NCBI GenBank assembly: GCA_009787835.1 | Contig: WQSN01000002.1 | Span: 1 to 64,000, forward strand | Reading direction: 5' to 3' | Source: Treponema sp. | Lineage (GTDB): Bacteria; Spirochaetota; Spirochaetia; Treponematales; Breznakiellaceae | Length of the DNA: 64,000 bases | Shown: in pieces, positions 3 to 62,198 of the stretch | Layout of the letters: every line of letters begins with the position of its first letter | Position numbering within the stretch: position 1 is the first letter of the stretch | The notes under the pieces: generated by a model | What the model was told of the DNA's origin: nothing | Database searches by the model: none | What the model saw: only the letters and a program-made list of their open reading frames with translations | Position numbers and translations under genes: made by a program

Positions 3-2621
3 TTACACCTTCTCCTTCTTTCCGTAGAAAGCGTTAAGATACATTTTTTTGATTTCTTCGATTAGCGGATAACGCGGATTCGCGCCGGTACACTGATCGT
101 CAAAAGCCTGTTCGCTCATCTCGTCCAATCGCGCGAGGAAATCCTTTTCGTCGATGCCGTAATCCTTGATGGTCTTTTTAATGCCAATCGCATCTTTGAG
201 TTTCTCGACAGCTTCAATAAGTTTGTCGAGTTTTTCCTCATCATTTTTGCCGCCAAACCCCATAGCCTCCGTTACTTCCGCGTAACGCCTTAAGGTCTTG
301 GGATGATCATATTGAGGGAAGGTCCCCATTTTGGGTGGAACTTCAACAGAGTTAAAGCGCAGTACTTCCGAAATCATCAATGCGTTTGCTACGCCGTGAG
401 GCAGATGATGGAACGCGCCGAGTTTATGCGCCATCGAGTGACACACTCCCAAGAATGCGTTGGCGAAAGCCATACCTGCGATTGTAGCGGCGTTTGCCAT
501 TTTCTCGCGGGCAACGGCGTTTGCAGCGCCTTCGTTGTACGCTACGGGCAGCCACTGGAAACAGACCTTCAACGCTTGGATTGCGAGACCGTCTGTGTAG
601 TCGGTTGCCATTACCGAAGCATAAGCTTCAAGAGCATGGGTTACGGCGTCAATACCTGAAGCAGATGTCAGACCTTTTGGCGCGTTCATCTGCATGTCGG
701 CGTCTACGATTGCCATGTCCGGCATTAGCTCGTAATCCGCGAGCGGATATTTCATTCCTACGGTTTCATCGGTGATGACCGCGAAAGGAGTTACCTCGCT
801 TCCCGTTCCGGCGGAAGTGGGGATTGCGATGAAGTACGCCTTCTCGCCCATTTTGGGGAAGGTATACACGCGCTTTCTGATGTCCGCGAAACGCATTGCC
901 ATATCGGCGAAGTCAACATCAGGATGCTCATACAAAACCCACATGATCTTTCCCGCATCCATTGCGGAGCCGCCGCCAAGTGCGATAATAACATCGGGCT
1001 TGAAAGTGCTCATTTGTTTCGCGCCTATTTTCGCGCAGCCTAGAGTCGGATCGGGAGCTACATCAAAAAACGTATCGTGGACAATGCCCATACTGTCAAG
1101 TTTGTCGGTAATTGGTTTGGTATAACCGTTGCTATAGAGGAATTGGTCGGTAACGATAAACGCCCGCTTTTTCCCCATTACATTTTTCAGTTCGTCGAGG
1201 GCTACAGGAAGGCAGCCCTTCTTTATATACACCTTTTCAGGTGCACGGAACCACAGCATATTTTCCCTCCTTGCCGCCAGTGTTTTGATATTAAGCAAAT
1301 GCCTGACGCCTACATTCTCCGATACGGAGTTACCGCCCCATGAGCCGCAGCCTAAAGTGAGCGACGGCTTCAGTCTGAAGTTGTACAGGTCGCCGATACC
1401 GCCGTGAGCCGACGGCGTATTAACCACAATACGGCAGGCTTTCATGCGGTTTGAAAAAGCGGTGAGCTTTTCAGAATCTGTCTGCGGATTAAGATATATG
1501 CTGGCAGTGTGACCGTAGCCGCCGTCCTTTACCAACTGGTCGGCTTTATCTAGCGCTTCATCAAAGGTCGCGGCTCTATACATCGCCAGTACCGGGGAAA
1601 GTTTTTCATGGGCGAACTCTTCGGCCAAATCAACGCTTTCAACTTCGCCGATGAGGATCTTGGTTGCCTCAGGAACTTTCACGCCGGCAAGTTCGGCGAT
1701 CTTCGCCGCCTTCTGTCCGACAATTTTCGCGTTAAGCGCGTGATTTACTATGATCGTTTTCCGTACCTTTTCGGTCTCTTCCGGGTTAAGGAAGTAACAG
1801 CCGCGCCTTGTAAATTCCGCCTTTACCTTGTCGTAGACGGAAGCAAGAACAACCACGGACTGCTCGGAGGCGCATATCATACCGTTATCAAAAGTTTTGG
1901 AATGGATGACTGAGTTAACTGCCAACAGAATGTCAGCGCTTTCAGCGATTATTACCGGAGTGTTGCCCGCTCCGACGCCGATTGCGGGTTTACCAGATGA
2001 ATACGCCGATTTGACCATGGCAGGTCCGCCTGTAGCAAGAATTGTATCGGCTTCCTTCATTACCATATTTGTCATTTCCAGGCTTGGTTCGTCTATCCAG
2101 CCGATAATCCCCTCAGGCGCTCCCGCTTCTACCGCGGCGTCCAGTACAATTTTCGCCGCCGCGTTGGTACTGGCTTTTGCACGCGGGTGCGGTGATATGA
2201 TAATACCGTTCCGCGTTTTAAGACAAATAAGCGTCTTAAAAATCGCCGTAGATGTGGGATTGGTGGTAGGTATTACCGCTCCTACCATGCCGATAGGTTC
2301 TGCAATCCGCGTATAACCCATAGCCGGATCATCCTCAATAACGCCGCAGGTTTTCTCGTTTTTGTAGGCGTTGTAGATGTACTCGGAAGCATAGAGGTTT
2401 TTGATTACCTTATCCTCCACAATCCCCATACCGGTTTCAGCTACCGCCATTTTTGCCAATGGAATCCGCTGCTTTGCCGCCGCCCGGGCTGCCGCGAAAA
2501 AGATCCTGTCTACCTGTTCCTGGCTGAATGTCGCGTAAGCCGCCTGGGCTTTACGGATTCTCGCGAGGCATAGGGATAGGCTTTGCGGGTCTGTTACCGG
2601 TTCATACCTGGTCTCTGCCAT
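3..2621 (-). CDS. adhE: Bifunctional acetaldehyde-CoA/alcohol dehydrogenase AdhE
   Basis: Reduces acetyl-CoA to acetaldehyde and then ethanol with NADH, the terminal redox-balancing step of mixed-acid fermentation; cytoplasmic and usually filament-forming. The 872 residues match the family length (about 870-890). The N-terminal aldehyde dehydrogenase half (about 1-440) has the catalytic Cys near residue 250 (NGMICASEQ). The C-terminal iron-dependent alcohol dehydrogenase half has the GGGSAMDAGK nucleotide loop and the iron ligands in GIDAVTHALE and in the CHSMAHKLGAFHHLPHG stretch. The ATG at 2621 follows GGAGTG by about 6 nt. The stop overlaps a minus-strand ATG (TAATG) at the window edge, so a coupled downstream gene may begin outside. 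A pair of mutually exclusive hairpins lies at the ribosome-binding site (2631-2651). With hydF and hydG in the same window it fits an ethanol- and H2-producing fermenter. Confidence 0.97.
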   Translation of the reverse strand: MAETRYEPVTDPQSLSLCLARIRKAQAAYATFSQEQVDRIFFAAARAAAKQRIPLAKMAVAETGMGIVEDKVIKNLYASEYIYNAYKNEKTCGVIEDDPAMGYTRIAEPIGMVGAVIPTTNPTSTAIFKTLICLKTRNGIIISPHPRAKASTNAAAKIVLDAAVEAGAPEGIIGWIDEPSLEMTNMVMKEADTILATGGPAMVKSAYSSGKPAIGVGAGNTPVIIAESADILLAVNSVIHSKTFDNGMICASEQSVVVLASVYDKVKAEFTRRGCYFLNPEETEKVRKTIIVNHALNAKIVGQKAAKIAELAGVKVPEATKILIGEVESVDLAEEFAHEKLSPVLAMYRAATFDEALDKADQLVKDGGYGHTASIYLNPQTDSEKLTAFSNRMKACRIVVNTPSAHGGIGDLYNFRLKPSLTLGCGSWGGNSVSENVGVRHLLNIKTLAARRENMLWFRAPEKVYIKKGCLPVALDELKNVMGKKRAFIVTDQFLYSNGYTKPITDKLDSMGIVHDTFFDVAPDPTLGCAKIGAKQMSTFKPDVIIALGGGSAMDAGKIMWVLYEHPDVDFADMAMRFADIRKRVYTFPKMGEKAYFIAIPTSAGTGSEVTPFAVITDETVGMKYPLADYELMPDMAIVDADMQMNAPKGLTSASGIDAVTHALEAYASVMATDYTDGLAIQALKVCFQWLPVAYNEGAANAVAREKMANAATIAGMAFANAFLGVCHSMAHKLGAFHHLPHGVANALMISEVLRFNSVEVPPKMGTFPQYDHPKTLRRYAEVTEAMGFGGKNDEEKLDKLIEAVEKLKDAIGIKKTIKDYGIDEKDFLARLDEMSEQAFDDQCTGANPRYPLIEEIKKMYLNAFYGKKEKV

Positions 2622-28086: not shown

Positions 28087-28476
28087 ATGGCGTCAGTATT
28101 AAAAGAAGCGAAAAAAAAAATTGTTTATGTTGATGATATGAATACCAGCCTTTTAATTCTTAAAAAAGCGCTAAAAGAACATTATGAAATCTTTCTGGCT
28201 AATTCAACCAAAAAAATGCAAAAAATATTAAAAAAAATCATGCCGGATTTAATATTACTGGATGTCAATATGCCGGATACAGACGGCTATGAATTAATAA
28301 AAATATTAAAAACAGACAAACATTACTCAAGTATACCGGTGATTTTTATTACAGGCAATGACGACAAGGAAAGCGTGCAGGAAGGTTTAAAACTCGGCGC
28401 GGCGGCTTATGTTATTAAACCTTTTAACGCTTTAAAGATGATAGAAACCATTAATAAAATATTATACCCAACATGA
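28087..28476 (+). CDS. Single-domain response regulator (receiver only)
   Basis: 129 aa: one CheY-like receiver with the acidic pair in YVDDMN, the phospho-acceptor Asp in LILLDVNMP, Thr/Ser in FITGNDD and Lys in VIKPFNA. It has no output domain, so it probably acts through protein contacts. GGAG lies about 10 nt before the ATG. No kinase is adjacent; it stands alone before a DsbA-like gene. Confidence 0.93.
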   Translation: MASVLKEAKKKIVYVDDMNTSLLILKKALKEHYEIFLANSTKKMQKILKKIMPDLILLDVNMPDTDGYELIKILKTDKHYSSIPVIFITGNDDKESVQEGLKLGAAAYVIKPFNALKMIETINKILYPT

Positions 28477-28556: not shown

Positions 28557-29063
28557 ATGAAAAAATTTCAACTGTTTTATGATTATGAATGTCCTTACTG
28601 CAAAAAAGGACACGAGTCATTAATGGAACTTCTTCCGCAATATCCGGAGATCGAAATTGAATGGCGGCCAATTGAAGCTCACCCACGGCCTGAAGATCAT
28701 CATCCCCATTCAGATCTCGCTGTTGTTAGTTTTTACATAGCGCGCGATCTGGGCGCGGACATGGAAAAATTTCACGCCTTGATGTACCAGGCTGTTTCCA
28801 TTGAAAGACGTAATATAGAAGATCCGGAAATTCTATTCAATATTATTAAAAATATTATTGACCGTAATAAATTTTTTGAACTTCTCAACTCAGGAAAATA
28901 TGCGTCAAGAGTAACGGAAAATAATGATCTCGCCTATGAAAAAGAAGGCGTCTGGTTTGTCCCTGCATTCAGGGCGGGAGATCTCAAACTGGACGCCCAA
29001 GGCGGAATTGGAGTGTCAAAAAAAGAAGTGAAAGATTTTCTGGATAAATTAACCATTAATTAG
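28557..29063 (+). CDS. DsbA-family thiol oxidoreductase-like protein (cytoplasmic)
   Basis: 168 aa with a thioredoxin-fold N-terminus FQLFYDYECPYCKKGHESL carrying a CPYC redox motif. A helical insertion and the cis-Pro segment GVWFVPAFRAG follow. There is no signal peptide, so it is probably cytoplasmic and related to FrnE/2-hydroxychromene isomerase-type DsbA proteins. Strong Shine-Dalgarno AAGGAG. It may handle disulfide or glutathione chemistry under oxidative stress; the hemerythrin gene nearby is compatible but proves nothing. Confidence 0.87.
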   Translation: MKKFQLFYDYECPYCKKGHESLMELLPQYPEIEIEWRPIEAHPRPEDHHPHSDLAVVSFYIARDLGADMEKFHALMYQAVSIERRNIEDPEILFNIIKNIIDRNKFFELLNSGKYASRVTENNDLAYEKEGVWFVPAFRAGDLKLDAQGGIGVSKKEVKDFLDKLTIN

Positions 29064-29095: not shown

Positions 29096-29140
29096 TTCAT
29101 GTATAATTCAAGAAAAGTTCACGTAGAATTCAGATATAAT
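29096..29140 (+). promoter_or_regulatory. Four 11-bp TTCA direct repeats overlapping a TATAAT promoter (TCS autoregulation)
   Basis: TTCA begins at 29096, 29107, 29118 and 29129, an exact 11-bp period, each followed by a 7-nt segment mostly ending in AA or AG. A perfect -10 TATAAT sits at 29135-29140. The repeats cover the -35 region of the promoter for the response regulator gene at 29184. The spacing matches PhoB/PhoP-family binding boxes. The same array recurs before the VTC gene. Confidence 0.7.
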
Positions 29141-29183
29141 ATATAAAATAGATTATTTTTAATACTAGAGGTGTTTTTATATA

Positions 29184-29855
29184 ATGGCGAAAATATTAAT
29201 TTGTGATGATGAAGCGGGGCTTCGCGCTGTTATTAAAAAATACGCTGAATTTGAAAACCATAAAACAGCGGAAGCATGCGACGGCGCGCAGGCGGTAGCG
29301 GCATGCAAAGAAGAAAATTTTGACATTGTTATAATGGATATAATGATGCCGGAAATGGACGGTTTTACAGCGCTAAAGGAGATTCGGAAATTTTCCAATG
29401 TGCCTGTTATTATGCTTTCAGCAAGAGGCGAGGAATATGATAAAGTGCTGTCATTTGAACTTGGAGTAGATGATTATGTTGTAAAACCTTTTTCATCAAA
29501 AGAGATAATGCTCAGAATCGCCGCGATATTAAGGCGTTTGGGCAATGAAACGGATAATCATGTAATATTTAAAAAAGACGGTTTTATCGCTGATATGACG
29601 GCGCATAAGGTAATTATTGACGGAATACAAGTTGAATTGGCGCCTAAAGTATACGATTTACTTTTCTATTTAATCCGCAACAAAAATATCGCAGTATCGC
29701 GCGAAAAACTTCTTGCCGATGTCTGGGGTTATAATTATTTTGGAGATGACAGAACCCTGGACACTCACATGAAGCTGCTGCGCAAGGCCCTTGGCCCTTA
29801 TGAAAATCAGATAATAACATTGCGCGGCCTTGGTTACAGGTTTGAAGAGAGTTAA
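29184..29855 (+). CDS. OmpR/PhoB-family response regulator
   Basis: 223 aa. The receiver domain (about 1-115) has CDDEAG, the phospho-Asp in IVIMDIMMPEMDG, and VVKPFSSKE. The winged-helix DNA-binding domain (about 130-222) has LAPKVYDLLFYLIRNKNIAVSREKLL and DDRTLDTHMKLLRKALG ending in TLRGLGYRFE. Proteins of this type bind tandem half-sites 10-11 bp apart, matching the repeats at 29096 and 31334. It overlaps or abuts the histidine kinase gene, its cognate partner. Confidence 0.95.
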   Translation: MAKILICDDEAGLRAVIKKYAEFENHKTAEACDGAQAVAACKEENFDIVIMDIMMPEMDGFTALKEIRKFSNVPVIMLSARGEEYDKVLSFELGVDDYVVKPFSSKEIMLRIAAILRRLGNETDNHVIFKKDGFIADMTAHKVIIDGIQVELAPKVYDLLFYLIRNKNIAVSREKLLADVWGYNYFGDDRTLDTHMKLLRKALGPYENQIITLRGLGYRFEES

Positions 29856-29862
29856 GTTAAAA

Positions 29863-31320
29863 TTGAGTAAAATAAAATTTAAATTACAGTGGAAGGTTTT
29901 CGGATTTCTTCTGGGTTTTTGCATGCTCCTTCTGATCATCCTGTGGCTGTTTCAGATTGTGTTTCTCAATGATTTTTACAGGCTTGTGCGCATAACAGAA
30001 ATACGAAACAGCGCCTCAACGATTATTTTACACATTAACGATGACAATTTGCAGGATGTTATAACAGCGTTATCTGAAAACGGGGATTTTACCGCCGATG
30101 TTTTATTTTTGGACGGCCAGAGCGCGTTCAGGCGTTCCCGTCCGTCTCAGCTTGATATAGCGCTTATAAATATGGCATCGAAAAATGGAGGCGAATTTTA
30201 CGAATATTCATCCAACCTGCAGAACCGCGTTTACGAAGCTCAGATGCCGTTCAGGCGTTTCGCTCCGGATCCGGATGAGAATTCGCAGATTAGGCCGGAA
30301 ATTTACAGAAGAGTCTACCGCCCGCAGCCCATGGAATCCCTTTTATATATCCGTCTTACAGGCGACAGGGCTGTCAGAATAAACGCCGTTATTACTCCGG
30401 TTATCGCCACTGTAACGACATTACGCCAGCAGTTATATTTTATTTCAGCCTTAATGCTGATCCTTGCTACAGTTCTCGCGATCATTATTGCGAAGCATAT
30501 TTCCAAACCCATAGAAAAAATAAGCCATTCAGCTCTGGATTTGGCGAAAGGCCGCTATGATACGCGTTTTTCCGGGAAAGGTTTCTTTGAAATTGAAGAG
30601 TTATCTGAAACCCTAAACACTGCGGCGGCTGAACTTGGTAAAACTGAATCGCTGCGCCGTGAACTGCTTGCAAATGTATCGCATGATTTACGAACTCCAT
30701 TGGCTTTAATTTACAGCAACGCGGAAATGATGTACGACTTTCCGCAGGATATAACAAAAGAGCAGGCAAAGGTAATCATGGATGAAACCAGGCGTTTGGC
30801 AAGCCTCGTAAGCGATGTGCTTGATATTTCCAAACTTGAAGCGAACATGGAACATTTAAACGCTTCCAGCTTTAATCTGACCAGTTGTCTTTACGAGACT
30901 ATCGAGAGACTGCGGGAACTTTTAAAAAATCAGGATTATAAAATTGTATTCACTCATGATGCTGATGTTACAATTAACGCGGATCAGACCATGATTAACA
31001 GGGCTTTTTACAATCTTTTGATAAACGCGATTAATTACGCCGGCGCTGACCGCATTATAACAGTCGTTCAAACAGTCTCGCAGACGCGGGTAAGAATTTC
31101 TGTTATAGACAATGGCGAAGGCATCAGTGAAATTGATTTGCCTTTTATATGGGACAGATATTATAAGAGCGGCAGACCGCATAAAAGAGCCGTTACAGGC
31201 ACTGGTTTGGGTTTGTCCATTGTAAAGAAAATTGTAGAACTGCATGAAGGCGAATACGGCGTTATTTCGGCGATTGACAAGGGCAGCACATTCTGGTTTG
31301 AACTTAATACATCAGAATAA
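29863..31320 (+). CDS. Membrane sensor histidine kinase
   Basis: About 485 aa from TTG 29863 (beginning MSKIKFKLQWKVFGF). Other TTG codons upstream (29830, 29842) lie inside the regulator gene and have poorer ribosome-binding context. TM1 is near 12-33 and an extracytoplasmic sensor of about 150 residues follows, with TM2 near 190-212 and then HAMP. HisKA has the H-box NVSHDLRTPLAL, and HATPase_c has NLLINAINYAG, DNGEGI and GTGLGLSIVKKI. No PAS domain is seen, unlike typical PhoR. It likely phosphorylates the adjacent OmpR-type regulator. Confidence 0.94.
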   Translation: MSKIKFKLQWKVFGFLLGFCMLLLIILWLFQIVFLNDFYRLVRITEIRNSASTIILHINDDNLQDVITALSENGDFTADVLFLDGQSAFRRSRPSQLDIALINMASKNGGEFYEYSSNLQNRVYEAQMPFRRFAPDPDENSQIRPEIYRRVYRPQPMESLLYIRLTGDRAVRINAVITPVIATVTTLRQQLYFISALMLILATVLAIIIAKHISKPIEKISHSALDLAKGRYDTRFSGKGFFEIEELSETLNTAAAELGKTESLRRELLANVSHDLRTPLALIYSNAEMMYDFPQDITKEQAKVIMDETRRLASLVSDVLDISKLEANMEHLNASSFNLTSCLYETIERLRELLKNQDYKIVFTHDADVTINADQTMINRAFYNLLINAINYAGADRIITVVQTVSQTRVRISVIDNGEGISEIDLPFIWDRYYKSGRPHKRAVTGTGLGLSIVKKIVELHEGEYGVISAIDKGSTFWFELNTSE

Positions 31321-31333
31321 TTCATTGCCTTAA

Positions 31334-31398
31334 TTCAGACAGAATTCAGACAGTTATCAAGGGCTGTTCAGGTTTTTAGCATATTACATTGTTATAAT
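31334..31398 (+). promoter_or_regulatory. Four 11-bp TTCA-type direct repeats and -10 box before the VTC operon
   Basis: TTCA at 31334, 31345 and 31367, with ATCA at 31356, again at exact 11-bp steps. The first two units are TTCAGACAGAA and TTCAGACAGTT. TATAAT lies at 31393-31398, so the boxes sit at about -71 to -29 relative to the predicted start near 31405, an activator position. The regulator encoded at 29184 is the obvious candidate. Confidence 0.7.
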
Positions 31399-31491: not shown

Positions 31492-32235
31492 TTGCAGAAC
31501 TTTTTTAAACGGCATGAAAAAAAATATTTAATCACGCAGGATCAGGCGGCGGCTTTGCAAAACATTATTTCACAGCGCATGAATAAAGACCCGCAGTATC
31601 TGGTGCAGAATCTGTATTACGATTCAGGCAATTGGGATATTATCCGTAAATCAATTGAAAAGCCATTTTACAAGGAAAAACTGCGTTTAAGGTTATACGG
31701 CCTGTACAGTACGGATTCCCAGGCGTTCATTGAACTCAAGAAGAAATATGACGGTATAACCTATAAAAGAAGGGCAGCCGTTCCCGTAATGGAAATTAAA
31801 AACCGCAGCATAGGTGAAATTATTAATAGCTCTGATTCCCAAATCCACAGGGAAATAGCGTTTTTTCTGAAGAATAACACGGTTTCAGAAAAGGTATATA
31901 TCGCGTTTAGAAGAACCGCCTATACAGGCATTAAAGAAAGCGATTTGCGCATAACTTTTGACAATGACATTCTTTTCACATTATGCCCGCGGAATAAATG
32001 TTGTTTTGACGGTTTTAATCCCGGTAATGGCAGGCGAATCCTGAAACCAAGTCAGTCACTACTGGAGATAAAAACAGCCATCTCCATGCCATTTTGGCTT
32101 GCCCGGGCGCTCAGTGAGAAAAGTATTTTCCCATCATCTTTTTCCAAGTACGGCGTCTGTTACGCAAAACATATCGCAGGCGGAAAGGATTGTTTTCAGT
32201 TTGTGAACAAAGGAGAGGAAAAGGATGCAGCTTGA
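31492..32235 (+). CDS. VTC-domain (polyphosphate polymerase-type) protein
   Basis: 247 aa, of the VTC/TTM (triphosphate tunnel) superfamily; eukaryotic Vtc4 polymerises the gamma-phosphate of ATP into polyphosphate. Likely tunnel residues are the paired Arg in KEKLRLRLYG, Lys/Arg in IELKKKYDGITYKRR, and the acidic/Lys strand LLEIKTAISMP. It starts with TTG 6 nt after GGAGG. It overlaps the DUF4956 gene by 11 nt. Catalysis of polyphosphate synthesis is inferred from the family, and bacterial VTC homologues of this operon type may do something else. Confidence 0.88.
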   Translation: MQNFFKRHEKKYLITQDQAAALQNIISQRMNKDPQYLVQNLYYDSGNWDIIRKSIEKPFYKEKLRLRLYGLYSTDSQAFIELKKKYDGITYKRRAAVPVMEIKNRSIGEIINSSDSQIHREIAFFLKNNTVSEKVYIAFRRTAYTGIKESDLRITFDNDILFTLCPRNKCCFDGFNPGNGRRILKPSQSLLEIKTAISMPFWLARALSEKSIFPSSFSKYGVCYAKHIAGGKDCFQFVNKGEEKDAA

Positions 32236-32899
32236 ATTAATTACATCCAGCCTGACAAATAACGTTCCTTCATTGCAGGGAATAATTTCATGCACATTAT
32301 TTTCCCTTGTTTTCGGGCTGGCAATCGCGGCAATCTATATGTTTAAAAACAAATATTCAAGGAGCATGGCGGTTACGCTTGTACTGTTACCCGCCATTGT
32401 GCAGATTGTTATTATGCTGGTTAACGGAAATATCGGCGTAGGCATAGCTGTAGCAGGGGCGTTCTCTCTTGTGCGTTTCCGTTCAATTCCCGGAACCGCG
32501 AGGGAAATCGCGGCTATATTTTTCGCCATGGCCATTGGATTTGTAACAGGCCTTGGGTTTGTGTTTTACGCTTTTGTTTTCCTGATCCTTGTCGGCTGCG
32601 CGTCTTTGCTCATGGCTAAATTTTCCTTCGGGGAAAACGGCCATATACGCATATTAAAAATTAAAATACCGGAAAACCTGGATTATGAAGATTTATTTGA
32701 CGATGTTTTTTCCAGATACACGAAAACCATAAAACTGGAAAAAGTCACGACCTGCGAGATGGGCAGCCTTTTTGAATTGACCTATACAGTGCATTTAAAA
32801 TCGCCCGGTACATCCAAGTCATTTATAGATGAACTGCGCTGCAGAAACGGCAATCTAAATATTTCATTAAGCCGTAATAAAGACGGAGAGGAGTTATAA
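32225..32899 (+). CDS. DUF4956 membrane protein
   Basis: 224 aa: about four TM segments in the first 140 residues (including GNIGVGIAVAGAFSLVRFRSIPGTAREIAAIFFAM, the family's conserved core) and a soluble C-terminal domain of about 85 residues. DUF4956 proteins are recurrent neighbours of VTC-domain genes in Firmicutes and spirochaetes, but have no established function. Its translation is coupled to the VTC gene, suggesting a membrane complex in which this protein could be a channel or anchor for the VTC product. Confidence 0.9.
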   Translation: MQLELITSSLTNNVPSLQGIISCTLFSLVFGLAIAAIYMFKNKYSRSMAVTLVLLPAIVQIVIMLVNGNIGVGIAVAGAFSLVRFRSIPGTAREIAAIFFAMAIGFVTGLGFVFYAFVFLILVGCASLLMAKFSFGENGHIRILKIKIPENLDYEDLFDDVFSRYTKTIKLEKVTTCEMGSLFELTYTVHLKSPGTSKSFIDELRCRNGNLNISLSRNKDGEEL

Positions 32900-32901
32900 A
32901 C

Positions 32902-34410
32902 ATGAAGAATAGAGCGTTATTTTCGTTTACAGTATTGTGCCAATTAATGGCATTGACGTTTTTTTCAGGCAGCGTGTATGCCGGAGGATCGGGAGAAAAT
33001 TCAGGCATCGCAAGCCTGCGTTCCGGTTTTATTAACGGCGTTTACCGCATCTCATCAGGAGGCAGGTATACATTCTCGGGAGAACACACAGGGCAGATTC
33101 TTATAGAAGCGGCCAGAAATGATGTTGTGGAACTGGTGTTTGACGGTTTAACGCTGCACAATCCTAACGGCCCCGCAATTCTCGCACCGCGATCCAGAAA
33201 TGTTGAAATAATATTAAACAGCGGAACGATAAACACAATCTCAGACGGAAAACATCCCAACGATGAAACCAACGCCGCGATTTATATCCAGCATAATCTG
33301 ACTTTTTCCGGTAATGGAACGTTAAACGTAAACGGAAACTACCATCACGGTATACGCACACAGGATACCCTCACTGTCAAAAGCGGCGTATATAACATAA
33401 AAGCCGCCGGGGACGCGCTTCGCGGACGCGATGCGGTCATTATTGAAAACGGATCATTTACGCTGACAGCGGGCGGCGACGGAATACAATCCAACAATGA
33501 TACAAACCCGGACAGGGGTTTTATCACCATTAACGGCGGCACATTTGTTATTAACTCAGGAGATGACGGCATACAGGCGGAAAAAAATATTACTATCAAT
33601 AACGGCAATATCGGAATAACAGCGAAGGATGACGGAATAACAACCAATGGATCGATTTTAATAACAGGCGGCGTTATCAATATAACAGACAGCTATGAAG
33701 GCCTGGAAGGGCTGAATGTCACCATAACGGGCGGGGACATAACCATTTTGGCAAGAGATGACGGCATTAACGCAAGAGACGGCGAAACCGTTAATATGGG
33801 ATGGGGCAGGCCAATGATGCGCAGGCCTCTGAATGAAAATATATTTGTGCGCATAACAGGCGGCAATATAAATGTTCAGGCGTACAGGGACGGAATTGAT
33901 TCAAACAACAATATCTTCCTGGAAGGCGGCGCGTTATACATCAGCGGCCCTTCAAGGGGAATGGAAGGAGCCATTGACTGTGACGGCGTTTTTTTAATCA
34001 CCGGAGGAAAACTGGTCACGGCCGGAAGCGTGATAAATTTATCGGGACAATCCACGCAGCCCGCGCTTTTGGCTGGATTTAACCAGAATATGCCTTCAGG
34101 AGCGATAATCGAAATTCGCGACTCAGGAGGAAATTCGCTTCTTCGTTACGCGGCTAAAAACGCATTTAGTATGTCCGCTTTTACATCGCCCGATTTTACA
34201 ATAGGGCAAACATACTCGCTGTTTATAAATAATGAAAAAGTAAATGACATAACGCTTAACAGTACCATTACAAATATCGGAAGTAATAACTTCAGGGGCG
34301 GATTTGATGGGGGCAGAGGCGTTCCCGGTGGGAACCGCGGAGGTAATGATGGCAACAGACGCATGATGCCGGCGCCTCCTCCCGGCAATATACCCAGACC
34401 AAGATTCTAG
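32902..34410 (+). CDS. Exported Cthe_2159-like carbohydrate-binding beta-helix protein
   Basis: 502 aa with a signal peptide ending near VYAGG (about residue 27). The body is a right-handed beta-helix with repeated GDDGI/KDDGI turns (GGDGIQSNND, SGDDGIQAEKN, AKDDGITTNG, ARDDGINARDG, YRDGIDSNNN), typical of the Cthe_2159 carbohydrate-binding family (PF14262), where such acidic turns bind calcium. The C-terminus (about 455-502) is Gly/Arg/Asn/Pro-rich and low in complexity. It starts 2 nt after the DUF4956 gene and so belongs to the VTC operon. Confidence 0.88.
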   Translation: MKNRALFSFTVLCQLMALTFFSGSVYAGGSGENSGIASLRSGFINGVYRISSGGRYTFSGEHTGQILIEAARNDVVELVFDGLTLHNPNGPAILAPRSRNVEIILNSGTINTISDGKHPNDETNAAIYIQHNLTFSGNGTLNVNGNYHHGIRTQDTLTVKSGVYNIKAAGDALRGRDAVIIENGSFTLTAGGDGIQSNNDTNPDRGFITINGGTFVINSGDDGIQAEKNITINNGNIGITAKDDGITTNGSILITGGVINITDSYEGLEGLNVTITGGDITILARDDGINARDGETVNMGWGRPMMRRPLNENIFVRITGGNINVQAYRDGIDSNNNIFLEGGALYISGPSRGMEGAIDCDGVFLITGGKLVTAGSVINLSGQSTQPALLAGFNQNMPSGAIIEIRDSGGNSLLRYAAKNAFSMSAFTSPDFTIGQTYSLFINNEKVNDITLNSTITNIGSNNFRGGFDGGRGVPGGNRGGNDGNRRMMPAPPPGNIPRPRF

Positions 34411-59176: not shown

Positions 59177-61369
59177 TTACAGGCTCCTTAAAATTCTTTC
59201 TGCGTCAGCCCTGCCTGAATAATTCGGATTGCGGTTTAAAAGATCCTGCAGATAACGTCTTGCGTCACTGCTTCTTCCCAGACTTACGCAGGTCATCCCG
59301 AGTTCATACATGGCGTCCCAGTTGTCAGGCGTCATGCGCAGAAGCGATGTGTAGGATGAGAGCGCTTTGTCAAGTTCCCCAGCGCCCGCATAAGTGCGCG
59401 CGAGATTAAAAACCACCGTAGGATCATTCTGTCTGACAGCTAACGCGCGCTCGTAGTGAACAATGCTGTATGACCAGTTTTCTTTTTTCGCGTAAACGGC
59501 GCCAAGATTGTTGTTTACTTCAAAGTTGGAGGATTCTATTGCATACGCTTCATTCAGATAACGTAGCGATTCATCATAATTTGCGGCCGTGAGGTAAAGG
59601 CTTCCAAGATTGATCCTTGGGCGAATATACTTTGCATCAAGGGATGCCGCGTTCTTGTACGCGTTTATCGCAATATCGCGTGCGCCTGATTCTTCACAGG
59701 CAAGCCCAAGCGTATACATATAAACCGCGTTTGTCTGATTGCTGTCTACGGCATTCCTCGCGTAGGTAATGGCTTCCGTGTTCTTTTTTAATTCAAGTTT
59801 TACAACCGCCATGTTATAGTTGGTCTGTGCGTCGGACGGATCTGTGCGCAGTGCGCGCTCGAAATAAATTTCCGCCTGCGCGAAGTTGCCGGTCTGGCTG
59901 TAGGCAGCAGCAATTTCGCGCAGGGTATTATAATCATTGGGATTGTGCTTGAGTACCTGTAAAAATGAATTTACTGCGCCTGCATTGTCTCCCTTGCCGG
60001 CAAGGATTCTGCCGATTTCCCTGTGAGCCGCGACATAATCATCCTTAACCGCGACTGCCTGCTGATAGGCTGCCAGAGCCTCATCGGTGCGGTTCAGCAT
60101 TCGCAGCGTCCCGCCGAGATTGTACCACGCCGATTCAAAATTGGGATTTATTCTTGTCGTATTCTGGAATGTTTCGCGAGCTTCTGAATACCGCCTGTTA
60201 TTGAACAGGGAGCGTCCCAAATCATGTGAATACAGATAATTATTCGGTTCAAGACGCGAGGCTTCCCTTAATTCCGAAATGGCTTTGTCATTCTGGCCTG
60301 AATCGCGGGAAATCCTTCCCAGTACATAATGCGGCAAGCCCTGAGTAGGATCGTTTGCTATCGCTTCATTGGCGAGCTGCGCCGCTCTTGCCGCCGCTTC
60401 CCTTCCTGCCGCAGTATTCGCGTTTTTGGAATTATAATCATAATAGGCGTCTGCCATTTCAGATAATTTCTGCGCTATAAAACGGTTTTCTCCTGCAGGC
60501 ATACTTCTTCTTGCATTGGTGAAAATACGATCCGCTTCCGCCAGATTACCCGATGCAATTTGCGCCTTGGCATCCGCAACAAGATCGTTTACCCTGGTCA
60601 TCGCCTGCTGTAACTCGCGCGACAGTCTTGCCATCTCTTCTTCCTGCGCCTTCTGACGCGCGGCTTGCGCCTCTTCCGCGGCTCTTCGCTCAGCGGCGGC
60701 CTGCGCTTCTTCCGCAGCTCTGCGCTCTTCGGCAGCTCTGCGCTCATCAGATATTCTGCGTTCTTCGGCTATCCTGCGTTCCTCGGCGGCCCTGCGTTCT
60801 TCCAAAATCCTTCGCTCTTCTGAAGCCAAACGCTCCTCGGCAATCCTGCGTTCCGTAGCGGCCTGTATTTCAGCGGCTGCCAAGCGCTCTTCAGCAATCC
60901 TGCGCTCTGACGCCGCCTGCGCGTCGGCGGCGGCCGATCTCTGCTGATTTGCCGCAGCCAGATCGCGCCTCTGCTCTTCCAGAAACCGGCGCTGAGCTTC
61001 CATTAACGCATCAGTATCGTTCCGGCGGTTCTGGCTTAAAACCTGCAATTGAAGATCCCTGGCATCCAAATCATCAGGGTCGTTTATTAAAAGCCCGTCA
61101 ATTAAATTTAAAGCGCGGTCATACTCGCCTGCTGCGTTATAACTTGCAGCAAGCTTTAAAATATTCTCTCTTCTGGCGGCCGCATTGCCGCCTATATTGG
61201 TGATGTATGTATCACCGTCCAAATCCGCTTCATCCTCTGTTAATTCGGTTATATCTTCAGCATCAGATGCGTTTTTATTACGCACAACAAGAAATATCAC
61301 TGTCCCCGCGATAAGCAGAGCGAGTAACGCTCCCGCGGATATTAAAATTATTTTTTGTTTTTTCGTCAT
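59177..61369 (-). CDS. Membrane-anchored TPR protein with long charged helical repeat
   Basis: 730 aa. One N-terminal TM segment (about 7-29), an acidic stretch, a TPR-like pair, then about residues 125-260 of ERRIAEE/ERRAAEE-type heptads, very rich in Arg, Glu and Ala. This is predicted as a long single helix or coiled coil. From about 300 to 730 there are at least ten TPR motifs (e.g. NFESAWYNLGGTLRMLNRTDEALAAY, AQTNYNMAVVKLELKKNTEAI). It is probably a periplasmic scaffold anchored in the inner membrane. It follows a smaller gene (61395-62198) with the same repeat and sits in the same operon. Confidence 0.87.
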   Translation of the reverse strand: MTKKQKIILISAGALLALLIAGTVIFLVVRNKNASDAEDITELTEDEADLDGDTYITNIGGNAAARRENILKLAASYNAAGEYDRALNLIDGLLINDPDDLDARDLQLQVLSQNRRNDTDALMEAQRRFLEEQRRDLAAANQQRSAAADAQAASERRIAEERLAAAEIQAATERRIAEERLASEERRILEERRAAEERRIAEERRISDERRAAEERRAAEEAQAAAERRAAEEAQAARQKAQEEEMARLSRELQQAMTRVNDLVADAKAQIASGNLAEADRIFTNARRSMPAGENRFIAQKLSEMADAYYDYNSKNANTAAGREAAARAAQLANEAIANDPTQGLPHYVLGRISRDSGQNDKAISELREASRLEPNNYLYSHDLGRSLFNNRRYSEARETFQNTTRINPNFESAWYNLGGTLRMLNRTDEALAAYQQAVAVKDDYVAAHREIGRILAGKGDNAGAVNSFLQVLKHNPNDYNTLREIAAAYSQTGNFAQAEIYFERALRTDPSDAQTNYNMAVVKLELKKNTEAITYARNAVDSNQTNAVYMYTLGLACEESGARDIAINAYKNAASLDAKYIRPRINLGSLYLTAANYDESLRYLNEAYAIESSNFEVNNNLGAVYAKKENWSYSIVHYERALAVRQNDPTVVFNLARTYAGAGELDKALSSYTSLLRMTPDNWDAMYELGMTCVSLGRSSDARRYLQDLLNRNPNYSGRADAERILRSL

Positions 61370-61394: not shown

Positions 61395-62198
61395 TCAATC
61401 AAGCTCAAATTCGCCATGATAACCTTCAACACCTTCAGCGCCTGAAGATATACTCTGGCTGTATTCAGCCGCCGCCTGGAGCGAGGCTGAAACCGCGTCC
61501 AGCAGTCTTTGTCTCTCTTCCGCTAACCTTCGCTCTTCCGCGAGTCTTTGTTCTTCCGCTACCCTTCGCTCTTCGGCCAATCTGATTTCTTCCGCTATCC
61601 TTCGTTCTTCCGCTATCCGCATCTCTTCGGCGATCCTGCGCTCTTCTTCCTCGGCCAATAATCTCCTTCTCTCTTCAGCCGCGAATTCCTCACGTATTAG
61701 ACTCATAAGCTGTTCAATAAACTGCCTCTGGGGCGAACGCGGTTCCAGCATCAGATATTGTTCATAATCCAGAATGGCATTTCGCAGATTACCGGCTTTA
61801 ATCAGAGTATTCGCCCTGCCAAGATACGCTCTGGAATAAACTGAATCAAAACCGATAGCCTGGGTATAGAACTGCTCTGCCAGCTGCATGTCCCCTCTTT
61901 TAAAATAAACATTTCCCAGATTATTGGCAACATTGGCGGAAAGACTGCCCGCCTGCGGCAAAGCTCTTCTGTACGCCGCGACCGCTTCGTCTAATCTGTT
62001 GAGCTGTTCATATACAATGCCAAGATAAAGCCAGGTCTTTACATTTGCTCCGTCATCCGTGATTGCGTTTTCAAGGAAAGTAACCGCTTCTGAAGGCTTG
62101 TTCTGCATAAGCAAATCCTCTCCCCTGGAAAAATTAGATTGACCTGAGACAGGAATTGCCGTTAATACTAATATGTATAAAATAATTTTTTTTATCAA
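61395..62198 (-). CDS. Exported TPR protein with C-terminal charged helical repeat
   Basis: 267 aa with a signal peptide ending near PVSGQ (about residue 20). TPR motifs fill about 25-165 (AVTFLENAITDDGANVKTWL, NNLGNVYFKRGDMQLAEQFY). Residues about 170-245 are ERRIAEE-type heptads matching those of the next gene, and a short acidic tail follows. TTG start with AGGAAGG 6 nt upstream. It is likely a periplasmic partner of the larger TPR protein. Confidence 0.85.
   Translation of the reverse strand: MIKKIILYILVLTAIPVSGQSNFSRGEDLLMQNKPSEAVTFLENAITDDGANVKTWLYLGIVYEQLNRLDEAVAAYRRALPQAGSLSANVANNLGNVYFKRGDMQLAEQFYTQAIGFDSVYSRAYLGRANTLIKAGNLRNAILDYEQYLMLEPRSPQRQFIEQLMSLIREEFAAEERRRLLAEEEERRIAEEMRIAEERRIAEEIRLAEERRVAEEQRLAEERRLAEERQRLLDAVSASLQAAAEYSQSISSGAEGVEGYHGEFELD

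Follow-up and report, generated by a model that had tools for sequence, protein, structure and literature searches.

Paired arrays of 11-bp direct repeats in a Treponema genome are predicted operators of a PhoB-like two-component system

Introduction

Activation by PhoB at the pho box of E. coli involves direct repeats that are bound in tandem (PMC3348028). The CiaR box of streptococci has the form TTTAAG-N5-TTTAAG, and mutation shows that it is needed for activation (PMC9603419). In Gram-positive bacteria, accessory genes of Pel clusters encode CotH, a polyphosphate polymerase and DUF4956 (PMC7112168).

Here, we analyzed a 64-kb stretch of DNA from Treponema sp. (hereafter the window), in which two arrays of 11-bp repeats, A1 and A2, flank a regulator-kinase pair. 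The locus resembles the PhoB-pho box system in its OmpR-family regulator, its head-to-tail direct repeats of 11 bp, and a site that replaces the -35 element upstream of a -10 element. It differs in the half-site, which is TTCA(G) rather than CTGTCAT, in having no phosphate genes among its predicted targets, and in the presence of four half-sites at A1 and A2. With the CiaR box it shares an 11-bp direct repeat and a regulator of the OmpR family, for which binding is predicted at A1 and A2. However, the sequence differs, with TTCA or ATCA cores and no TTTAAG in either array, and identity of the window's regulator with CiaR is unsupported. Like the Pel cluster, the locus places a VTC-type polymerase next to DUF4956; the Pel cluster, in contrast, is tied to exopolysaccharide synthesis, and the part of PMC7112168 covered here describes no two-component regulation. 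As read from sequence, the mechanism would be of a known kind, and what is new is the content of the predicted regulon, which combines VTC-DUF4956-beta-helix with a MacAB-TolC exporter. We found no description of two-component control of VTC-DUF4956 in the literature covered, from which subscription journals are mostly absent.

Genes of the locus

The regulator gene (29184-29855, plus strand) encodes a 223-aa OmpR/PhoB-type response regulator made up of a receiver domain (Pfam Response_reg, 4.5e-29) and a winged helix (Trans_reg_C, 1.7e-22). Its best NCBIfam model is PhoB and its nearest solved structure is RegX3. The linked gene on the same strand (29863-31320) encodes a sensor histidine kinase with HAMP, HisKA and HATPase_c domains, identified by Pfam and by alignment with orthologues, and an extracytoplasmic sensor is predicted between two membrane stretches. 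The orthologue alignment places the likely start at TTG 29863, whereas the open reading frame list starts at 29830. Directly upstream of A1 lie genes for a stand-alone receiver-domain protein (28087-28476) and a DsbA-like thioredoxin protein (28557-29063).

Downstream of A2, three further plus-strand genes encode a VTC-domain, polyphosphate-polymerase-like protein of 247 aa with a TTG start (31492-32235; Pfam VTC, 2.9e-36), a DUF4956 membrane protein of 224 aa (32225-32899; 1.5e-15), and a Cthe_2159-type carbohydrate-binding beta-helix protein of 502 aa (32902-34410; 1.3e-75). VTC proteins of yeast (Vtc4) are polyphosphate polymerases, and bacterial VTC-domain proteins have been named accordingly, largely by this analogy. 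We know of no function for DUF4956. Many charged residues of the VTC protein, e.g., R65, R67, E81, K83-K85, R141, E192, K194 and K219, are invariant in 11 relatives, and the enzyme therefore looks intact, with polyphosphate synthesis as its putative activity.

Repeat arrays A1 and A2

Array A2 (31334-31377, plus strand), the predicted operator of the VTC operon, is made up of the units TTCAGACAGAA, TTCAGACAGTT, ATCAAGGGCTG and TTCAGGTTTTT, which start at 31334, 31345, 31356 and 31367 (TTCAGG) and carry the cores TTCA, TTCA, ATCA and TTCA, respectively. At 31378, the array may continue with a fifth, degenerate unit, AGCATATTACA. Array A1 (29096-29139, plus strand), predicted to serve the promoter of the regulator gene as its operator, consists of TTCATGTATAA, TTCAAGAAAAG, TTCACGTAGAA and TTCAGATATAA, starting at 29096, 29107, 29118 and 29129, and all four units have the core TTCA. 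Both arrays thus have the layout that the initial annotation had described, with four units at exact 11-bp steps and head-to-tail half-sites in the 10-11-bp range.

That annotation had also judged two arrays flanking one pair to be unlikely by chance, and the counts bear this out. The pattern (WTCAN7)x4 occurs twice in the 64 kb against 0.003 expected from the dinucleotide content of the window, a value on which simulation and the product of frequencies agree. Across all 143 contigs of the genome (3.08 Mb), A1 and A2 are the only two occurrences, with about 0.15 expected; the other strand and a reversed control pattern each gave none. No four WTCA units at any other period from 6 to 30 were found in the window. 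Three-unit WTCA matches elsewhere in the genome (contigs C4, C14, C29, C32 and C71) come without the extended motif described below and were dismissed as chance. The seven-base spacers that separate the TTCA cores vary from unit to unit in both arrays, which lack the full-length unit conservation of a tandem repeat or minisatellite, and a tandem-repeat search called no array at either position.

Promoter architecture

A TATAAT hexamer (31393-31398) lies downstream of A2 at an activator-type position, as had been proposed. Since TG (31390-31391) precedes it, the core promoter of the VTC operon is an extended -10 element, TG-T-TATAAT (31390-31398, plus strand), with no -35 hexamer. Assuming a transcription start about 7 bases past the -10, at ~31405, unit 4 of A2 would occupy about -38 to -35 and replace the missing -35. 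The sequence TTGTT, which in A2 is part of TG-T-TATAAT, recurs at an identical distance past unit 4 in five arrays of the related genomes G003, G009 and G234.

At A1, the candidate -10 by consensus is TAAAAT (29144-29149, plus strand), 15 bp past the start of unit 4, with TATAAT at 29135-29140 as an alternative. The same +15 placement is found before the regulator genes of the relatives G039 (TATACT) and G236 (TATAAA). In these two genomes and in the window, the -10-like hexamer of the regulator gene is one 11-bp step closer to the array than is the TATAAT of A2, and the degenerate unit at 31378 would fill the step separating A2 from its TATAAT.

A consensus scan detected no -35/-10 pair at either promoter, and canonical sigma-70 promoters at A1 and A2 were rejected, with no match at either site. 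An array ahead of an extended -10 without a -35 fits an activator that binds in tandem, as PhoB does. A regulatory RNA in the VTC leader was also considered and set aside, as the fold is no better than that of shuffled sequences (z = -0.32); an Rfam search returned only a weak, below-threshold match inside the kinase gene.

Conservation of the motif and co-occurrence with the regulator

The comparison set comprised 200 genomes of the family, with the window's genome designated G000. After removal of minisatellites and chance matches, (WTCAN7)x4 matches yielded a common array form, TTCAGNYRRAA TTCAGAHARNN WTCAYTNNNYT TTCA, in G000, G003 (three sites), G009, G234 and G236. A2 fits this form at its TTCAG cores, and its ATCA third unit is the one found in most of the others. 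With zero mismatches, the extended 20-base motif TTCAGNYRRAATTCAGAHAR has eight sites in these five genomes among the 200 searched. For a position weight matrix whose training set excluded G000, A2 is the top match in the window (23.3 bits, with 14.2 bits for the next), and a third site of the genome, on contig C23, reaches 23.2 bits. A1 is a looser variant of about 14 bits, supported chiefly by the exact TTCA core of all four units. Between genomes, the motif is kept and the flanking DNA is not. Matches to the two-unit form TTCAGNNANAATTCA in 19 genomes are mostly chance, at about one to two per genome. The WTCAN7 matches in G040, G219 and G227 were set aside as true minisatellites; at two of these loci (L077 on contig C23 of G040 and L079 on contig C174 of G227), the 11-bp repeats are of the ATCATCGAAGT and ATCAATAGAGG types and unrelated to the operator.

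Orthologues of the regulator (75-83% identity) were found only in G000, G039, G003, G234 and G236, the next best matches being at about 50%, and kinase orthologues occur in exactly the same five genomes. The expected DNA-contact helix, RTLDTH-KLLRKA, is conserved in all five regulators. The zero-mismatch motif is present in 4 of the 5 regulator genomes and in 1 of the 195 others (Fisher p = 4e-7), a value that takes related genomes as independent and concerns a motif read from the same genomes, many of which are incomplete MAGs. The site is therefore present with the regulator and absent without it, except in G009, a MAG of 94% completeness and 8% contamination that has a good array and in which no regulator orthologue was found. 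The fifth regulator genome, G039, carries an array of three units before its regulator gene, and G236 one of four units. In G003 and G234, no array precedes the regulator gene itself, so that autoregulation is not universal.

Target genes of the motif

Each of the eight zero-mismatch sites lies ahead of genes from a single module, namely the regulator operon, (VTC-)DUF4956-Cthe_2159, or MacA/MacB/TolC with small secreted proteins. Two of them are in G000: A2, before VTC-DUF4956-Cthe_2159, and the C23 site (C23:28404-28423), which has two units instead of four and stands 61 bp upstream of the start of MacA in a MacA-MacB-permease-TolC operon. The three sites of G003 precede orf127-DUF4956-Cthe_2159 without VTC, orf168-MacA, and MacB permease-TolC. 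The G009 site precedes orf168 at a contig end, and that of G234 precedes orf127-MacA-MacB-permease-TolC. In G236, a single array stands before regulator-kinase-DUF4956-Cthe_2159-MacA-MacB-permease-TolC in one run, and these genes form one apparent operon. At MacA, no site was found in same-genus genomes without the regulator, nor in G039, though G039 has it.

Two families of small, secreted-looking proteins accompany these sites. Proteins of the orf127 family (L104:7442-7825, L070:4189-4602, L063:5958-6344) have no Pfam or NCBIfam match; the encoding genes follow the array in G003 and G234, and in G040 the gene immediately precedes VTC. Those of the orf168/orf142 family (L070:1447-1953, L103:8829-9257) have no Pfam match and directly follow the array in G003 and G009. 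Furthermore, a two-unit site, AATTCAGCTAAAATTCAG, is located upstream of a second efflux periplasmic adaptor-like gene in G003 (L143, contig C98, about 1154-1179, minus strand), which is a possible further member of the regulon.

An array before VTC was found only in G000, the VTC contig of G039 ending ahead of the promoter. Neither pair nor array is present at the VTC operons of G034, G014, G010, G040, G053 and G076, or at the second VTC operon of G000 on contig C57. Conservation of the array at orthologous VTC promoters, which the initial annotation had made a check on its proposal, is thus not seen in same-genus VTC operons, but it is missing only where the regulator is missing as well. Since arrays in relatives precede DUF4956-Cthe_2159 without VTC, as well as MacA-MacB-TolC operons, VTC is not a constant target. 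What stays constant is the regulator together with DUF4956-Cthe_2159 and the exporter, and VTC is one member in G000.

The second VTC-DUF4956-Cthe_2159 operon of G000 (L067, contig C57, 7183-10247) has a promoter block, TATAAATTTTTGTTATATTGTAACATG, that is common to G034 and G010, and this sharing points to two regulatory classes of VTC operon in the genus. The tetranucleotide profile of C57 correlates with that of the window at r = 0.966; same-genus loci are equally high, so contamination from a close relative is possible.

Proposed mechanism and alternative explanations

Taken together, A1 and A2 are probably operators of the neighboring PhoB-like OmpR-family regulator, which would activate its own operon, the VTC operon and the efflux operon. 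In the proposed mechanism, the kinase would sense an extracytoplasmic signal and phosphorylate the regulator. We infer that the regulator binds the arrays, that it activates rather than represses, and that its dimers are arranged head-to-tail with one monomer per TTCA(G) half-site; four half-sites would then accommodate two dimers, both on the same DNA face. Once bound, the regulator would bring RNA polymerase to a promoter with an extended -10 and no -35. Predicted outputs are the regulator-kinase operon from A1, VTC-DUF4956-Cthe_2159 from A2 and, in trans, the MacA-MacB-TolC operon from the two-unit C23 site. The initial annotation had the pair switching on VTC-DUF4956-beta-helix expression. 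Of this, the role given to the pair is supported, in that the arrays behave as its operator (co-occurrence, a shared module, and an extended -10 without a -35 that fits an activator), but VTC itself is not the constant target.

The same regulator could instead act as a repressor, with bound units overlapping the promoter and keeping the operons off until a signal arrives, as some OmpR-family regulators do from positions overlapping the -35 region. Given the +15 -10, units 3 and 4 of A1 overlap that region and could block polymerase. However, A2 lies farther upstream of its TATAAT promoter, the absence of a -35 hexamer is typical of activator-dependent promoters, and six sites share a core promoter at a fixed distance past the array, which makes repression unlikely.

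We regard it as distinctly unlikely that another regulator binds the arrays and controls the same module, with the neighboring pair as a bystander. Each genome does encode many other OmpR-family regulators, and the array of G009 stands without a detected regulator orthologue. Against this, motif and regulator co-occur across the 200 genomes, the pair is flanked by arrays on both sides in the window, three genomes have an array ahead of the regulator, and relatives that have MacA but not the regulator have no site at MacA.

A further question concerns the signal and is compatible with the operator reading. The initial annotation had favored phosphate starvation, and a Pho-type switch that makes polyphosphate would agree with PhoB as the best family model, with the activity of yeast VTC proteins, and with the pho box-like placement of the 11-bp direct repeats. 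However, the regulator falls short of both PhoB equivalog cut-offs (190.3 against 296.2 bits for TIGR02154, and 154.6 against 471 for NF007546), and by the former measure it resembles PhoB without qualifying as PhoB. The kinase is not of the PhoR type with a PAS domain, as Pfam detects only HAMP, HisKA and HATPase_c and the PhoR models stay below cut-off. The half-site is TTCAG and not the CTGTCAT of a box before pst or pho genes; the three sites of G000 front only the pair, VTC and the MacA export operon, with no phosphate-uptake gene among them. The array is also kept in relatives without VTC. We therefore consider a phosphate-starvation signal highly unlikely and disfavor this reading. Because the site also precedes efflux-pump genes, both here and in relatives, we prefer an envelope or efflux response to a phosphate switch, and our guess is that the signal is envelope- or efflux-related.

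Finally, it is hardly conceivable that the arrays arose by chance or are plain tandem repeats, either a minisatellite or phased, curved AT-rich DNA, without protein specificity: 11-bp minisatellites matching WTCAN7 do exist in G040 and G227, but A1 and A2 far exceed the expected count, differ in spacer bases between units, are not called by the tandem-repeat search, and carry a motif conserved between genomes whose flanking DNA is not.

Parallels in other bacteria and further observations

A two-component pair adjoins VTC-DUF4956(-Cthe_2159) in eight of the loci compared from Clostridia, Bacilli and Slackia (L005-L009, L011, L014 and L015). As in the window, these loci combine regulator, kinase, VTC, DUF4956 and usually Cthe_2159, and most have a 10-11-bp repeat before VTC. 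Unlike in the window, the regulators are only about 30% identical, the repeat sequences are different, and no MacAB-TolC link was seen. More specifically, repeats of the TTTAAG type, spaced 10-11 bp apart, are found about 60-100 bp upstream of VTC in the majority of loci, with TTTCAGG taking their place in Slackia, against a background of 0.36 per kb for this pattern over the same loci, and CTTAAAG repeats precede the regulator in several of them. The clostridial VTC promoters are closer to the CiaR box than to A2. We take these parallels as support by analogy and not as a test, because the motif was chosen after looking. In another locus, a VTC promoter of Bacilli (L013:5887-5930) carries TTCA, TTCA, TTCA and TTCT at exact 11-bp steps, near the half-site of the window; no two-component genes were detected in the stretch examined.

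On this basis, we tentatively suggest a conserved two-component regulon, present in spirochaetes and paralleled with different repeats in Clostridia, Bacilli and Slackia, that may link a carbohydrate-binding surface protein and VTC/DUF4956 to MacAB-TolC, the VTC-DUF4956 pair then belonging to an inducible envelope or export response instead of phosphate storage. By tying VTC and DUF4956 to one regulator, a beta-helix protein and a MacAB-TolC exporter, the predicted operator defines a concrete regulon and offers an alternative to a phosphate-related function of VTC-DUF4956 that can be tested. Furthermore, the operator sequence provides a signature for locating this regulon in uncultured spirochaetes.

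Elsewhere in the window, tandem repeats of 18, 36 and 54 bp (60660-60935 and 61514-61646) lie inside two minus-strand open reading frames (59177-61369 and 61395-62198), which probably encode repeat-rich proteins.
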